A stretch of DNA of 64,000 bases from Cerioporus squamosus (taxonomy: Eukaryota > Basidiomycota > Agaricomycetes > Polyporales > Polyporaceae). Both the position numbers and the translations under genes were made by a program. The number at the start of each line of letters is the position of its first letter. Within the stretch, counting starts at the first letter, position 1. Shown here one piece after another: positions 31,690 through 62,847 of this stretch. The notes under the pieces were generated by a model that saw only the letters and a list, made by a program, of their open reading frames with translations, was not told the DNA's origin and searched no databases. The stretch is from contig JABYQS010000052.1 in assembly GCA_022592435.1 (NCBI GenBank), forward strand, positions 124,001 through 188,000, written 5' to 3'.

Positions 31690-33426
31690 TCAGTGCTCGC
31701 ACATATTGAACTCGAGCTCATACACCTTCTCGTTGTGCTCGACGACAAAGCTCGAGCGCTCCTTCATGAGCTCCGCCCGGTGTTCCTCCGCCTTCTCACG
31801 CGACATCACCCCGGGCTTCACGAACTCGGCGACGAGATCGAACAGCTCCACAGGCAAGTTCTGCATCGCCGGTGCCTTGACGAGCTCGTCCATTGACCAG
31901 TCCTCCTGCTGCGGCGGGACGTGCGTCGTCGACAAGATCTCCGTCTCCGGATTCACGAGGAAGAAGCACAGGATCTTCCGGTATCCCGGCTTCGTCGGGT
32001 CCGCAAGCTCGAACGCGTCGACGTGGTGCTGGTAGATGTTCGGGAACGCGACGCACTTGTCCTCCTCCGCGACGATGTGCCCGATGTTCTGGTTCTTGTG
32101 GTGGTTGGGCCCGAATCCGTACGAGACGATGAACCCGCGGTCGTCGTACTGCTCGTACCGCATCTCGATGCCGTCCTCGGTGCCGACCGTGACGCGGAAG
32201 TCGAGCCGCGACTCGGTGATGTTCTCGCACGCGTAGTAGTACAGGCCCGTCACGACGATGTTCTCGTTTGCCATGCCCTCGACGTGCCACGCGCCCCCGG
32301 CGAAGCGCGGGTTCTCCGGCGTGAGGACGATGTTCGCGAGCTTGACGATCACCTGCACTTTGCGGCCCTTGAGCGAGTACTCGACGCGGTCCTCGAAGGT
32401 TGGAGGATGGAAGGGCGCGGGGTCGGGAATGATGGGCCATCTGAACTCGTTCGCCCATATGTCGTACGCCTCTTGGTCGTACCACGAGTCCGAATTTCCG
32501 GGCACATCGCAGTACCAGAGCTCCGGATCGACTTGTACAGCCAGCGGACGCTCAGGGGATAGAGCGTCGGACAGCACCCGCTCAAACATGGGTACAAATC
32601 GCGCGAGGATGGACGTGATGGGCGTGTAGAGCGCGGCGTCGCGTGTGGGGTGGAGGTTGTTAATGTATCCGAGCGCCTCCACCTTTCCCGTCTCGGAGAC
32701 AGCGAAGTCGGTCGGGAGCCACTGGTACTTCTGGGACATGAGGTAGCGGTGTTCCTCAGAGGAGCTGTTCAAATCTGGGCGGCGCGCTGTGTATGCCTGC
32801 GGCGTGATGGCTTCCAGTGGGTCATCATTGCTCGCGTCCTCCTTGCGAACGTACGACTCGCCGATGACCAGGCAATACAGCGAAGGGTGCACGAGATCTA
32901 AGACTTGCTTGTTCGATCCGGGGTGCCAGTCCTTCTTCTCTTCAGGTACGTTCTCGAGGAGCGCGACGCCGTGAACGAGTGCCTCCTTGGTAGCCGGGGA
33001 GATCAGCGACCTTGATTCGTACACATTGGGAATAGATGCTGCCTGTGCAAGATTAGTGAGTAGGTTCGCCAGCGCATCAGAAACAGGACTTACGAATATG
33101 CCAGTCTCGGGGTCACGTCGGGAGGCCTCGTATCTGAGTTCTTCGAAGATGTAGTCGACCTGCGCCTGGGTGATACGTTCGCGGGGCCATCTCTTCTTGC
33201 CATTGCCGTGTTTGAGGTACTCGTCGCCGCCCCATAACTTCTCGACCAGCGCACGATCCTGTTCGACAATCTCCTGGCGCCACTTCTTGACGATGGTCGG
33301 GTCATTGACCTTCTCCCACCAGTCTGGCTTGGAACGGATCTTGCCAGATAATAGGCGCATACGGAGCTCGACCAGCGTGTTGGGTTCGCGCTCTTGAAAC
33401 GTGAATGGCGAAGGGAATCGGGACAT
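31690..33426 (-). CDS. DUF4246 protein, intact copy 2
   Basis: Two exons, complement(join(31690..33042,33094..33426)), give 561 residues. The 51 nt intron is a multiple of three without stops, so the frame also reads through it. The start MSRFPSPFTFQEREPNTLVE matches the other copy; the open frame upstream to 33558 is not conserved. The same blocks as in the 19805 copy are present: HPGSNKQVLDLVHPSLYCLV, YQWLPTDFAVSETG, GGAWHVEGMANENIVVTGLY, AFPNIYQHHVDAFELADPTK and GYRKILCFFLVNPETEIL, so the candidate H-x-E, H and R residues are all kept. The C-terminal 120 residues are nearly identical to the other copy, to KVYELEFNMCEH. It is flanked by hydrolase copy 6 downstream and an F-box-like gene upstream. 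Confidence 0.92.
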   Translation of the reverse strand: MSRFPSPFTFQEREPNTLVELRMRLLSGKIRSKPDWWEKVNDPTIVKKWRQEIVEQDRALVEKLWGGDEYLKHGNGKKRWPRERITQAQVDYIFEELRYEASRRDPETGIFVSPVSDALANLLTNLAQAASIPNVYESRSLISPATKEALVHGVALLENVPEEKKDWHPGSNKQVLDLVHPSLYCLVIGESYVRKEDASNDDPLEAITPQAYTARRPDLNSSSEEHRYLMSQKYQWLPTDFAVSETGKVEALGYINNLHPTRDAALYTPITSILARFVPMFERVLSDALSPERPLAVQVDPELWYCDVPGNSDSWYDQEAYDIWANEFRWPIIPDPAPFHPPTFEDRVEYSLKGRKVQVIVKLANIVLTPENPRFAGGAWHVEGMANENIVVTGLYYYACENITESRLDFRVTVGTEDGIEMRYEQYDDRGFIVSYGFGPNHHKNQNIGHIVAEEDKCVAFPNIYQHHVDAFELADPTKPGYRKILCFFLVNPETEILSTTHVPPQQEDWSMDELVKAPAMQNLPVELFDLVAEFVKPGVMSREKAEEHRAELMKERSSFVVEHNEKVYELEFNMCEH

Positions 33427-34184
33427 GATGGGATGTGATCGGCGTGAGGAGTGCTGATATCGGAGGCTCCGCGAGCAAGTTGGTGGTCGACGTGGTCGTT
33501 CCAGAGGACCTATATACGACAGCACGGCGAGGGGCGGTCGGCGGATACGCGATGTCATCGCCTTCCCGGGGTTCCCCGCCTCGCGTTCTCACATCGACAC
33601 AACACGAGTCTGACGAGACTCGTGTAGACTCAGTGGCGGACACGCACATGACGGAAACAAGGCTTATCTGATAGGAGATCGGCGAGAATAAGAGTTGTCC
33701 TCCATGTATGTGCCAGGAATCTGGTGCAGTCGGAGATTGCGGAACGTTCTCAATGGAGACATGCGACATGCCCCTGCTTGGGAGGAGGGCGACTCCGACT
33801 TCGACTATTGAAAACGCGTTAGCTTGAGCAGTCCTAATTGTCACAGATAATATACTGGAGCTCCGGACTGCTTTTGAGACTGATTGACACCGGGTAGTAT
33901 TGCACGTGTGCGGCCGAATGGCCTATTCGACAGTATAAGACCACTCACCATAGGGAGACTGGTGAGTTCGAAAGGCATGGAAGCAGCCTCGGGAGTCTGT
34001 AAAGGTCATTCTAGTCAGACAGCTCTGGTGTATGAGCGTATACCCCCGCAAGTCACCCCGTATGATCTGCACATCAACAATTGCTTGCGTGATTCCATAC
34101 GCGACACCATTTATTGTCGTTTGGGAGAATATGAGGCGTGACATCAGTCATATGTGAGCCAATCCGTCCAGAACTCTTCCTTCC
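33427..34184. other. Intergenic, no gene seen
   Basis: Promoter region of DUF4246 copy 2 and 3' flank of the F-box-like gene at 34185. No repeat was recognised. Confidence 0.45.
33510..33516 (-). promoter_or_regulatory. Candidate TATA box of the DUF4246 gene at 33426
   Basis: GTATATAGG on the minus strand lies about 85 nt upstream of the start codon. Confidence 0.45.
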
Positions 34185-52574: not shown

Positions 52575-55500
52575 TCAGATATAGATCGGCAGAGTGGGGT
52601 TAAGGCCACGCCACTCAGGGCCCTGGACGAAGCTGTCCTCATCGATGAGGAAATCCTACAGTAGAATAGTTAGCAAATCAATCCCGACATTGGCACGAGT
52701 ACGAAGATATACCATCGGGCACTCGACAAGCGCACCACGGACCTCCGAGAGGCGCTCCTTGATGCGCTGGAGGGAAATGTCGGGCACGACGTGGCCAGTC
52801 ATGACATCGGGCACGTAGGCCTGCAAAAGCGAGCTTCAGCGAAACATCACGGCGCATCCCAGTGATAACCTACATCGTAGTCCTTCCAACTGCGGATGAG
52901 GTTCGTCGGCACGGGACGGAAGACCTCCGTGAAGATCTCGCGATTCTTGCGCGCCGTGTTGTTCCAAAGGTTGATCGTGTCGTCCGAGAGCGGGTCCGCG
53001 ACGATCTCGTCCTCCTGCTGGCCTGTCTCGTCCTCGTTCGGGTGAGGGGCCGGCTGCATGAACGAGTCGGGGCGGTCTTCATCCCTGCACCACTGCGGCG
53101 GAATGAGACCGAGGTGCTCTGCATTGCGGTCAGCGCACAGACACTACTTGCATGAACAAAGGCGACGGACCGCGATACAGCTTGCGACGGAGTGTCGCAG
53201 CGAAGCGAGCCGCCTGGTACTGCTGGCCGTCCATGTACGTGTCGATCATGTCCTCGTCCTCGACAACGAGGGCAATCTCGGAGTCACCGTCACCCTGATT
53301 CGCATTCTCAATCAGCTGAACTTATGCATGTAGCTACGGCGACATACCTTCTGGCTACGGTCGTTCAAGTTGGCGGAACCCATCTGGAGTGAGTAATCAG
53401 TACCCCTACAACTCCCGCGCAGTGCCAAAACTCACGATGACACGCCTGTCATCCACGATCATGACCTTCGAGTGGATGTACAGCAGCTCCGAAACAAAAG
53501 CGGCGCGCTCCTCGTCCTCAGTTCCGGCCCATTTCTCGTCAAGCAGACTCGTGCTGTCATGCAACATGTGCTGCACGACATTGTCCGCGACGTCCTCCGC
53601 GCCGCGAAGTTCCTGCGCAGCATTGCGCCAGCGGTCGATGATCTCACGCGCCTCTTCCACGGTGGGGGGCATGGGGTACGTCTCCGTCTTCAGTTCGGGC
53701 TTCTTGCCGGACGTGGTCTGCTCAGCGACCATCTTGCCCGTGGGGATCGAGACCGAAACTTCCTTTGGGTCCTCGATGCCCTCGCCGCGGCCAACCCAGA
53801 CACGCGCAAGTGCCACGTTCAGCTGGTGGAACGTTACGCCGCTGCGCTCCTCGATCTGTTTCATGTATGACCCTATGATGTGGGTAAGTAGCGTGGATGG
53901 AGCAAGCAGACGGAGGGGCACGCACCCCATGGCGCGTTGATACGGTCGTACGCGCGCAGGTGATAGAAGCGGATGTAGTCGGACCTGTCGTCAGCTCTCG
54001 TCAGCGTCAAGCGGAACTGAACACGAGGAAGCACTTACGGCTCGTAACCAGCCTTGCGGATCTCCTCGTAGATACTGTGTCCACCCCGGTTCATGGTGCG
54101 GTACTGGGCAGCCATGATCGTCTTCACGGACGTCTCATCCTTGACTACGCGTACGGTCAGCTCATGTTCTCCACGGAGCCGACGCAACTTACCTTGGCCA
54201 GCGAACCCGGGGACTTCGGGGATGACGACCACCACGCGGAACTTGGTTCCCTCACGGCCGGCGCGCACAATACGCTCGACGAGTGCCTTTGCAATCTGAT
54301 TCTGGACGGGACCGTCGTCCTGGGTGTTGGAGATGAAGAACTGGTTCTCTGCGACCCACTGTGAGCGAGTTAACACCAGATTCAGCTGTTAGACTACGTA
54401 CCGATGTAGATGAAGTGCTCAGATTCGCGGATGAGGTCAATGTCTAGCCCAGCGTCAGATCAGAACCTCTTCCAAGATTCCCGAACACGTACAGGCATTC
54501 TGGATACTGCGCTCCGTGAGGACGCCGTGGCTCCAGTCCGACACACTGCGCACCGCCTGCACGCGGCACGTACCCCGGGCAATTGGCTCCTCCTTATCGT
54601 AATCTTGAACGTCGCTCCTGTGAAGGTGGAAGCGATCTTTGAAGTGCTTGCCAATGCCGTGCCAGCGCTCGCGATGAGGGTGACCTGAGCTAGGAGATGA
54701 GGCACGTCGATGTGAACGGAACGTGTCCACCTACGGGCAACGGCTTCATTAGGAGCGGCCTCGACATCATGAGGGAGGGCGAGCCAGTCGAAGCGACTAC
54801 AGCTGGTTAGCTTAGCTTTCATACGTCTGGTCTTGGGACTTACGTATCATTGCGGTACTGTAAAACGCCACGGGTGTCAGTGTCGGACGCTCCCAAGCAC
54901 TGATGCTACACGTACCTTGCGTTTCTTGACCTCGTTCCAGCGCTCAACGAAGTGCTGCACGATATCGAGCACAACGTCTCCAGTGATGGTCATGTGCACA
55001 TCGTGCCAGGGCATCCGCGCGCTCTCGATCGAACTCAGCCCGTTGCTGACGTAGTTCGGGACGTTCTGGAAGTCCATAATGCGCGCGTTGTTGTAGTCCT
55101 GTCCGGGAAAGAGAGTCGCAAACGGGTCGAGCGGGTGCACGTCCGCAAGGGGGTGCGAATGCGTATCCCACCGTCCGAAGCAGAGGTCCAGGCCACCAAT
55201 GCAGGCGTAGTGGTTGTCGACGACGACGACCTTCTCATGGTGCGACCAGAACTCGACGTCGTCCTTGCTGCCGATGTGGTCGGGGTGCCGCATGACGGCG
55301 ATGTTCGGGTGGAGCGCCTCGAGGGTCTCCTTCGTGTGGTGCGAGCTCATCGTCATGGTCTGCACGACCTCCTTGTAGACCACGACGTAGACCTTCACGC
55401 CTTGCTCAGCCTTGCGCTTGAGGATTCTGTCGATGCGCCACTCCGGGTACTTGGCGGGAGGACGGCGGAGGTATAGTTCAGGAGTAAGCCACCAGTCCTG

Positions 55501-56044
55501 GCAACGACTCGAGGTCAGTATTTGGATAGTACCGATGGCGGTTCCTGAAGCAACTGGACAGACAGGGGCACCGCCATGAGGGAACTGGACATACCAGGAT
55601 GAAGATAGCCTCCTGCGCCTTCTCCAGGAGCTCGGACACGGCCCACATGTAGTCATGCCCGTCGATATGCCTGTGAGGCTGGTTTGACAACTGCACCCGC
55701 ACGCAACTCGAAGGACGAACGTACCACTTGACGAAGTTCTGCGCCCTCTGGGTCGCGAATGAGTGGAATCGGTGTCCCGACTGGATCTCTGCGCGGATCA
55801 TGTCCGCGCGTTTCTCCTCAGGATCATCATGGCGACCTGTGGCCTAGTTAGCGACGAGATGCGGTTGTTTGACAAGACGGGTACGGACGATCCGGGTTCA
55901 GTATGCCTGATTAGATTCAGTCAGTCTTTCAGACTCACGGCCAAGCTCCTTTGTTCACGCACCTATCGCCATCGCGCGAGCATGGCCAATGCCCTCCGGA
56001 ACCTTGTCCGCAATGCGCTCGAGCTTGTTGAGGAATTTGGACAT
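52575..56044 (-). CDS. Phospholipase D (two HKD motifs)
   Basis: Large multi-exon gene starting MSKFLNKLERIADKVPEGIG. It continues DMIRAEIQSGHRFHSFATQR, HIDGHDYMWAVSELLEKAQE and DWWLTPELYLRRPPAKYPEW. HKD motif 1 is WSHHEKVVVVDNHYACIGGL (H-x-K-x4-D). The central region has NQFFISNTQDDGPVQNQIAK and YEEIRKAGYEP. HKD motif 2 is LLYIHSKVMIVDDRRVI, followed after an intron by MGSANLNDRSQK. The C-terminus carries MTGHVVPDISLQRIKERLSE and ends GPEWRGLNPTLPIYI. No PX or PH domain is visible at the N-terminus, so it resembles the shorter fungal PLD rather than Spo14. It hydrolyses phosphatidylcholine to phosphatidic acid at membranes. The product is probably about 830 residues; exon edges in 54200-54900 were not all fixed. 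Confidence 0.9.
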
Positions 56045-61246: not shown

Positions 61247-61546
61247 ATGCGCTCATGGAGTTCCATGCATGCCGGAGCTCGTGTCCAGGCCAAGACCTGG
61301 GGATGACGGAGGATACTTGAATAGCCATGGATCCGCTGCCCGTCGCCCCAGTTCAGTTGCCTGATGCTACGCGTACCATGCACGGCGACAGTCTCGGACC
61401 TCGAAGTCGCCGCGCCCACACATCCATGAGACACCTCCCTAGGACTTACTGCATGTGAGTTGCAAGACGCCACTCGACCCTGGTACAAGTTCGCATATAA
61501 AGGTCCTACCGACCATGGTAGTGCGGCACATCCCTACCTCTTGAAC
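61247..61546. other. Upstream region of the repeat-peptide gene
   Basis: Contains the strong TATA box at 61496. Nothing else was recognised. Confidence 0.45.
61496..61501 (+). promoter_or_regulatory. TATA box of the repeat-peptide precursor gene
   Basis: A perfect TATAAA lies 46 nt upstream of the ATG at 61547. This is the best TATA match in the window and suggests strong or inducible transcription. Confidence 0.6.
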
Positions 61547-62197
61547 ATGAAGTACTCCGGACTCCTCACTTCACTCGTTGTCAGCATCCTCGTCTTCGTC
61601 GGCGAGGTGCGTTGGCTTCTCTTTTTCTTCCATGCCGTCGCAAACGATTCTGCCTCCCGCCGCTATGCTCGTTATTTCTGCAGCAGCACGCTGATCCATA
61701 TTGATACTAGGAAGCCGCCGTGGCAGGCGCACCCATGACCATAGCCGAACCTGTATACAAACGCGCCTTGTGCACCGGGGGAAGTGCTTCCTGCCCGGAC
61801 TGGAAGCGGCAGGACGGGGGACTCGGGCAGGTACGTCAGCTCGACATGCCGCACAAGGAGACTTCTCACTCGCACTTACCCTTCGGCAGGAAATCGCGCC
61901 CGCCGTCGGGGCTGGTGAGAAGCGACAGGACGGCGGACTAGGCCAGGTATGTCGCCTTACTCGTGTATGACAGTGGGATCGCATCTCCAATGACTGTCAA
62001 ACAGGAAACTGTGCCGCTTGACGCCAATGGCAAGAGGGAGTTTTGCACCGGGAACGGTGCTTCCTGCGCGGACTGGAAGCGGCAGGACGGTGGACTCGGG
62101 CAGGTATGCTAGCCCAACCATTGATTGGGACCACCTCCAAATTGTGATGCTTTGGCAGGAGACTGTACCTACTGGTGGCGCTGGCGAGAAGCGTTAG
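61547..62197 (+). CDS. Secreted Kex2-processed repeat-peptide precursor (KEP-like), 124 aa
   Basis: Five exons, join(61547..61606, 61711..61830, 61890..61946, 62005..62103, 62159..62197), all phase 0 with canonical gt...ag. Exon 1 encodes a signal peptide, MKYSGLLTSLVVSILVFVGE, completed by exon 2 (cleavage plausible after EAAVAG). Exons 2-4 each end KRQDGGLGQ and exons 2-5 each begin E. Six Lys-Arg sites are present, the substrate of the Golgi protease Kex2. Cleavage would free ALCTGGSASCPDW and EFCTGNGASCADW (both C-x6-C, ending D-W) plus three spacer-like peptides beginning QDGGLGQE. This matches the fungal KEP class, which includes alpha-factor-like pheromones, repellent peptides and ustiloxin-type RiPP precursors. 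No UstYa/DUF3328 oxidase is in the window, so modification is unknown. Role unknown. Confidence 0.85.
61765..61803 (+). other. Predicted released peptide 1, C-x6-C
   Basis: Encodes ALCTGGSASCPDW between Lys-Arg sites in exon 2. The two cysteines could form one intramolecular disulphide ring of eight residues. Confidence 0.65.
62038..62076 (+). other. Predicted released peptide 2, C-x6-C
   Basis: Encodes EFCTGNGASCADW between Lys-Arg sites in exon 4. It keeps CTG, ASC and DW of peptide 1 while the first two and several middle residues differ. Confidence 0.65.
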
Positions 62198-62847
62198 GAC
62201 GGCGTCGGAGAACGTTCTATTGAGTACTCGACAGGAGGGTGGACATTGAATTCGCAAGAACGATAGACAGATCGAGCTGCACTGGCTCGCTGTCTGCGCA
62301 ACAAACTTCTACGAGTTCTCAGCGCCACCGTCGATTGATATCGTTCTGACTCCGAGTCCCCAACAATCTGGATATATGTATTGACTTTTCCCTAGTTCGA
62401 CGTCTCACAATTCGAGTCTTTAAGATCATACGCGCGTGCGGAGATACAACTGAATTGAGAACGAAACTGGTCCGAAGACGGATTACAAAGGGGATACATG
62501 AAGGCTTCTCACTCGAACACTCCTCGCTTGTATAGTTTGTGAAGGCGACCATCTGCAATCGCAGTGTGCCCACGACACGATGAACCCACTGCCGCCACCG
62601 TGATTTCTCTTCTGCTCGCGCTCGCGCTCGTTGCTAGACTTCTCGGTATACGACGGGTCTTCTGGGATGAGTTCGGCACAAGTCAATTGAATGACATGAA
62701 GACGTACTCACCCTACACTATGCCCTCTCTCCCTTGAGCCTGCCCGTCAGGAATCGTGACCGGAGGACGCTTCGTCATGGTCCAGAACCAGCGTCCCCTC
62801 ATCATCCGCGCTTCACCTATAGGCAGACAGCGCATCAGCTAGTATAC
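62198..62847. other. Intergenic, start holds a decayed repeat unit
   Basis: The first about 60 nt resemble a further, decayed unit of the repeat precursor: GACGGCGTCGG, then a 21 nt gt...ag-like stretch, then GAGGGTGG. The remainder shows nothing recognisable. Confidence 0.4.

Follow-up and report, generated by a model that had tools for sequence, protein, structure and literature searches.

Gene structure and predicted peptides

The window analysed here, the whole 64,000-nucleotide stretch of DNA from the polypore Cerioporus squamosus, a species of the Polyporales in the Agaricomycetes (contig JABYQS010000052.1, positions 124,001 to 188,000), carries at 61547-62197 a five-exon gene for a 124-aa protein. 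This structure had been proposed in an earlier note on the sequence, and splicing of the window sequence reproduces the product, with all introns reading GT...AG. In a protein database search, the spliced product is identical over its full length to hypothetical protein C8T65DRAFT_779878 of Cerioporus squamosus, a model that represents the same splicing picked by another gene caller and is a prediction rather than an RNA observation. The exons measure 60, 120, 57, 99 and 39 nt, and since each is divisible by 3, skipping of an internal exon would preserve the frame. The introns, of 104, 59, 58 and 55 nt, all have phase 0, with introns 2-4 at an equivalent point, directly after QDGGLGQ. Exon and intron positions are those given by splicing.

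61496..61501, + strand: TATAAA, candidate promoter element by its position alone, 51 bases ahead of the start codon
61547..61606, + strand: exon 1, with the start codon and the greater part of the signal-like N-terminus (splicing, with a crude hydrophobicity check)
61711..61830, + strand: exon 2, leader with PVYKR end, Cys core 1, KR, QDGGLGQ
61831-61889, + strand: intron 2
61890..61946, + strand: exon 3, cassette without Cys core, EIAPAVGAGE-KR-QDGGLGQ
61947-62004, + strand: intron 3
62005..62103, + strand: exon 4, ETVPLDANG-KR, Cys core 2, KR, QDGGLGQ
62104-62158, + strand: intron 4
62159..62197, + strand: exon 5, ETVPTGGAGE-KR-stop

Upstream of the gene, an open reading frame of nine codons (MVVRHIPTS, then a stop) occupies 61515-61544 and ends two bases short of the start codon at 61547; it would be relevant only if transcription starts above 61515-61544. 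The N-terminus of the protein contains the hydrophobic run LVVSILVFVG, followed by possible cleavage points at AVA|GAP or VAG|APM, as judged by the crude hydrophobicity check.

Behind this N-terminus, the precursor is ordered as MKYSGLLTSLVVSILVFVGEEAAVAGAPMTIAEPVY-KR-ALCTGGSASCPDW-KR-QDGGLGQEIAPAVGAGE-KR-QDGGLGQETVPLDANG-KR-EFCTGNGASCADW-KR-QDGGLGQETVPTGGAGE-KR-stop. The six KR sites described earlier are present at residues 37, 52, 71, 89, 104 and 123, and other dibasic pairs are absent. Residues 26-124 hold six Lys and six Arg, all of them paired as KR, and 20,000 shuffles of this region gave at most 3 KR pairs against the 6 observed. Cleavage at these sites would release five peptides, all of which the earlier note had predicted and the spliced product contains: two of 13 residues with the spacing C-x6-C, and three of 17, 16 and 17 residues that share the start QDGGLGQE and diverge in their tails (EIAPAVGAGE, ETVPLDANG and ETVPTGGAGE).

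61765..61803, + strand: predicted peptide ALCTGGSASCPDW, with flanking KR at 61759-61764 and 61804-61809
61810..61919, + strand: predicted peptide QDGGLGQEIAPAVGAGE, split by intron 2 (splicing and KR cutting)
61926..62031, + strand: predicted peptide QDGGLGQETVPLDANG, split by intron 3 (splicing and KR cutting)
62038..62076, + strand: predicted peptide EFCTGNGASCADW, with flanking KR at 62032-62037 and 62077-62082
62083..62188, + strand: predicted peptide QDGGLGQETVPTGGAGE, split by intron 4 (splicing and KR cutting)

Repeats within the gene and proposed growth of the array

The three copies of KRQDGGLGQE differ from one another by 2, 4 and 5 codons in pairwise comparison, with zero amino-acid changes, and the two stretches running from a Cys core through KR to QDGGLGQ are identical at 56 of 63 bases. 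Taken with their flanking KR, the Cys cores span 17 codons, of which 7 differ between the copies. Five of these differences alter the residue, and the two silent ones both fall in the leading KR; at CTG, AS, C, DW and the trailing KR, the copies use the same codons. This two-copy pattern would fit a constrained Cys frame whose surroundings are free to vary, and a young duplication would look alike, given the identical codons at the conserved core positions.

The segments EIAPAVGAGEKR (exon 3) and ETVPTGGAGEKR (exon 5) have 8 of 12 residues in common. Together, the phase-0 introns and the location of introns 2-4 at the same place after QDGGLGQ point to growth of the array from exon cassettes ending in KR-QDGGLGQ, and the basis of this cassette duplication is exon sequence and intron position. 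Likeness among the introns was discarded as support for duplication, as the scores of the pairs 2/3, 2/4 and 3/4 lie inside the shuffled range, being reached by 153, 66 and 39 of 300 shuffles, respectively. At the end of the array (window 62195-62210), the TAG stop occupies the place of CAG in the QDGG units and is followed by GACGGCG as in those units, which suggests that the array was once longer.

Apart from the gene itself, no second copy was found in the genome by protein searches; weak matches on contigs C125, C285 and C501 proved on reading of the sequence to hold no Kex2-processed repeat protein (KEP). The pattern KCNGAYTGGAARMGN occurs at 36 places in the genome, against 41 for its reversed control, and is thus not enriched. 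Among 30 of these 36 places (L031-L060), only the gene itself has two or more DWKR in the 600 bases to either side, and L034 and L038 were rejected as paralogues after further reading, neither being a KEP. Four of the places, L044 and L045 on C184 and L057 and L058 on C645, are near-identical and read KCQASTPADWKRDSP, which probably belongs to a repeat element rather than to a KEP. The KR-QDGG pattern occurs at 5 places, 3 of them inside the gene, against 3 for the reversed control; the other two, on C31 and C486, have the same sequence throughout the stretch compared and are not KEPs.

The solitary status of the gene in these protein searches, together with the QDGG-like bases behind the stop and the seemingly shortened array, would suit a gene that is in decay or not expressed, with its array left as a relic. 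Such decay is very unlikely in our judgement: the frame is open across five exons, the splice sites are intact, and the QDGGLGQE units vary only silently.

A relative in environmental sequence

Protein searches covered 5.77 billion proteins and considered predicted proteins inside a length range. The full protein and a two-row alignment, used as queries, each returned 2 proteins (from 183 and 232 candidates, respectively), namely the gene product itself and P0002. The latter, a 93-aa open reading frame on a 546-base environmental ENA contig that reads GCTGSQNCADW-KR-QDGGLGQ, is the only clear relative found there, with an E-value of 8.5e-6 by the protein query and of 5.3e-13 by the alignment, which already contained part of P0002. 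A mixed query that included published peptides returned 5 proteins from 152 candidates, among them two from Lentinula and one from a metagenome. Pfam assigned no family to P0001, P0002, P0004 or P0005 among the proteins from the searches, the match of P0003 lay far under the cut-off, and P0001 had no PDB match.

P0002 begins with MVGAPTAVAEPVYKRGCTGSQNCADWKRQDGGLGQ followed by VC, as expected from a splice site CAG|GTNTGY, deduced here from the protein alone. It keeps PVYKR, CTG, C, DWKR and QDGGLGQ, and within its 546-base contig it has a single Cys core, of 11 residues, with the spacing C-x5-C. Further downstream lie EAAPAV, comparable to the EIAPAV that exon 3 encodes, and VRTAGWARY. The latter is similar to DRTAD*ARYV, obtained when exon 3 is read one frame off its QDGGLGQ; by this similarity, P0002 may contain a second unit in another frame than its EAAPAV.

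All three rows of the core alignment share KR, CTG, the second C, DWKR and QDGGLGQ, and the spacing is C-x5-C in P0002 versus C-x6-C in the Cerioporus gene. The conserved Cys spacing claimed earlier thus holds between the two copies within the gene but not in the relative, so C-x6-C is not strictly conserved; the check for a homologue with conserved KR sites yielded one relative that retains those sites but not the Cys spacing. Since the spacing varies while QDGGLGQ is identical, the most constant element is QDGGLGQ and not the Cys loop. This raises the reading in which the QDGGLGQE peptides provide the main activity, or serve the processing machinery as a recognition element, with the Cys peptides as secondary products. 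In its favour, the three copies carry no residue change and the heptamer is identical in P0002, whose core differs in both length and sequence; moreover, pyroglutamate peptides with N-terminal Gln are among the KEP peptides detected in Coprinopsis (PMC9769878). The three peptide tails nevertheless differ, and the Cys cores retain CTG, ASC and DW in a pattern that recurs in P0002, and we consider this reading rather unlikely.

Membership of the Kex2-processed repeat proteins

The gene adds an unstudied member to a known class, the KEPs, and is not a new kind of system. The Kex2-processed repeat architecture recognised from the sequence is borne out by the six KR sites and the repeated peptides between them, behind an N-terminus that may be a signal peptide. 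KEPs are defined in PMC7329392 by at least three repeats, of at least 8 aa, between Kex2 sites (KR, KK, RK or RR); by this definition, applied here outside the published pipelines, the precursor carries two Cys 13-mers between its KR sites, along with three QDGGLGQE peptides of 17, 16 and 17 aa. The same paper counts 7878 predicted KEPs, spread over 1345 of 1461 strains; 2560 of these KEPs lack homologues. KEPs often combine two or more repeat types. To meet an orphan KEP in the genome of a mushroom is expected.

The description of the precursor as undescribed stands for the protein itself, which is absent from the main text of the literature searched: QDGGLG, CTGNGASC and C8T65DRAFT have no occurrence there, and 'Cerioporus' is absent from the main text of PMC7329392. 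It does not stand for the core, since an ending in -(A)DW before KR has already been reported. Contrary to the statement that the core was not recognised, its [AP]DW ending before KR resembles mushroom KEP peptides verified by mass spectrometry in PMC9769878, where a shiitake KEP releases SGTGEASAADW and oyster mushroom KEPs release SGVAADW, either bare or preceded by M or L, all detected in fruiting bodies. An XSDW repeat motif is also reported in Basidiomycota (PMC6339444). With (A/S)DW before a dibasic site as the criterion, EFCTGNGASCADW-KR fits and ALCTGGSASCPDW-KR has PDW instead; the P0002 core GCTGSQNCADW also carries the (A)DW ending.

When the three cores were scored against the -ADW peptides, the best score was reached by 9, 2 and 6 of 2000 full shuffles and by 295, 73 and 184 of 2000 shuffles that preserve DW, so that, apart from the shared DW, the similarity lacks significance. 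Common descent with the -AADW precursors of Lentinula or Pleurotus is possible on these sequences. The passages of KEP literature examined offered no counterpart to a Cys pair within a -DW core or to the exon-cassette layout.

Pheromone, ustiloxin and repellent readings

The C-x6-C core also recalls mating factors, and the earlier note had named alpha-factor precursors among its models. An alpha-pheromone-like hormone of the kind found in Sordariomycetes would share with the Cerioporus peptides the layout of Fusarium alpha-pheromone, likewise C-x6-C with Trp near the C-terminus (PMC7289986), as does the Trichosporon oleaginosus peptide QSWGGCGGRGTPCW (PMC6339444). The Ste13 signature (X-A or X-P) directly after KR is nevertheless found at 0 of 6 sites, and the similarity of the three cores to two published alpha-type peptides lies within shuffles (878, 118 and 550 of 2000). 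The receptor family STE2 (PF02116) had no match in the genome, in which the same method found 16 for STE3; this search had no direct STE2 positive control, as 14 prokaryote control genomes were also without a match and could not serve as one. With no Ste13 dipeptide and no STE2 found, a canonical alpha-pheromone precursor is not supported, and a mating factor of this kind appears very doubtful.

A disulphide in the Cys peptides is plausible by geometry, by analogy with the equal C-x6-C spacing of Fusarium alpha-pheromone. In that peptide, an intramolecular disulphide can form in micelles and does away with activity, according to PMC7289986.

The surroundings of the gene, on contig C468 (216,733 bases), bear on two further readings. 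In window numbering 30,000-89,700, 132 open reading frames of at least 120 aa were collected, and 8 of the 30 scanned had Pfam matches: a PLD motif, a hydrophobin, DUF4246 twice, a sugar transporter, a transposase, a prenyltransferase and a spermidine synthase. Four of these, as placed by Pfam, are as follows.

Window 31693-33588, - strand: DUF4246 open reading frame, strong match, on one side of the gene
Window 54880-55797, - strand: open reading frame with phospholipase D active-site motif
L012:4854-5453, - strand: fungal hydrophobin open reading frame (PF01185), about 2.7 kb past the gene and outside the window
L012:8014-9444, + strand: DUF4246 open reading frame, strong match, on the other side of the gene

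A dikaritin precursor, that is, an ustiloxin-type RiPP with cores cyclised by UstYa oxidases, would have the same signal-like N-terminus and Kex2-delimited repeats, and the genome contains 16 UstYa (DUF3328) matches. None of these 16 lies on the contig of the gene, which leaves the dikaritin assignment unsupported, and no peptide-modifying family was recognised among the 30 neighbouring open reading frames scanned with Pfam. Tyr, which is typical of dikaritin cores, is absent from both cores and from all five predicted peptides. The ustiloxin-type model raised earlier can hardly be credited on this evidence.

The products might instead act as hyphal surface peptides, like the Rep1 repellents of Ustilago maydis. 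Rep1 is also a basidiomycete KEP without the Ste13 signature, and the hydrophobin frame downstream would suit a surface role, although its proximity is quite possibly chance. Rep1 peptides measure 37 residues, however, against 13-17 in the Cerioporus gene, which makes a repellent role a long shot.

Processing and proposed mechanism

The genome has one match to the kexin P domain, on C112, which represents a candidate Kex2; the open reading frame adjoining it contains a putative subtilisin-like stretch. DPPIV_N has two matches, both on C789, as candidate Ste13. Glutaminyl cyclase, searched by the family PF05096 only, had no match in the genome. Pyroglutamate KEP peptides, formed from N-terminal Gln, have been detected in Coprinopsis, and pyroglutamate also arose in Pichia, a host without such an enzyme (PMC9769878 for Coprinopsis).

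The best explanation overall, to which we assign a probability of roughly 0.6, is a KEP that releases five extracellular peptides from an array grown from cassettes. The precursor would probably enter the secretory pathway, where a Golgi kexin would cleave after every KR and a Kex1-type carboxypeptidase would trim off the basic residues. The products would be two Cys-pair 13-mers ending in DW and three 16-17-mers starting with QDGGLGQE, whose N-terminal Gln could turn into pyroglutamate. The array itself may have expanded through duplication of phase-0 exon cassettes, and the Cys peptides would combine a likeness to the -(A)DW peptides of other agaricomycetes with an added cysteine pair. Most likely, the peptides would act outside the cell, as signals or in biotic interactions. 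The functions of KEP peptides are described as largely unknown; in Coprinopsis, six kep knockouts had no phenotype and the synthetic peptides tested had no antibacterial activity (PMC9769878), so that function in the class as a whole is unproven.

Two features stand out in this gene: its -DW cores enclose a Cys pair, and its exon cassettes also encode a companion peptide with a constant start. They invite the speculative and rather improbable proposal that a polypore lineage made the linear mushroom -(A)DW peptide disulphide-bonded and co-produces it with a pyroglutamate-capped peptide from one cassette array. If this were true, exon skipping could shift the ratio of the two peptides, the exons being in frame, and the Cys pair could be a redox switch, as reported for Fusarium alpha-pheromone. 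The predicted [M+H]+ values are 1267.5082 (reduced) and 1265.4925 (disulphide) for ALCTGGSASCPDW, 1360.4933 and 1358.4776 for EFCTGNGASCADW, and 1568.7550, 1570.7343 and 1572.7136 for the QDGGLGQE peptides, or 1551.7285, 1553.7078 and 1555.6870 as pyroglutamates. With five defined masses, a 2.016 Da shift for the Cys pair and a constant companion, the precursor is a compact test case for -DW signalling in mushrooms and for disulphides in such peptides. The picture of how KEP peptides are produced is left unchanged.

Comparison with known systems

Ustiloxin precursors share with the Cerioporus gene a signal-like start and Kex2 repeats, and differ in having UstYa nearby and Tyr in the core. Ustilago maydis Rep1 was compared by peptide length and class only. 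The alpha-pheromone precursor of Fusarium oxysporum resembles the Cerioporus gene in KEP-type processing, C-x6-C spacing and a C-terminal Trp, whereas ascomycete alpha-pheromone precursors have Ste13 dipeptides and an STE2 receptor, neither of which was found for the Cerioporus gene.

Among mushrooms, the Pleurotus precursors bear Ste13 motifs (PMC9769878), unlike the Cerioporus precursor, and the agaricomycete -AADW KEPs have no QDGGLGQ companion. The Lentinula and metagenome relatives carry SGT...SAADW-KR units behind a signal-like start, with no Cys in the units, in contrast to the Cerioporus gene. Lentinula edodes KEP 2599 and Pleurotus KEPs 1091723 and 1439342, as described in PMC9769878, are likewise built of Kex2-delimited repeats with short cores ending in (A)DW.
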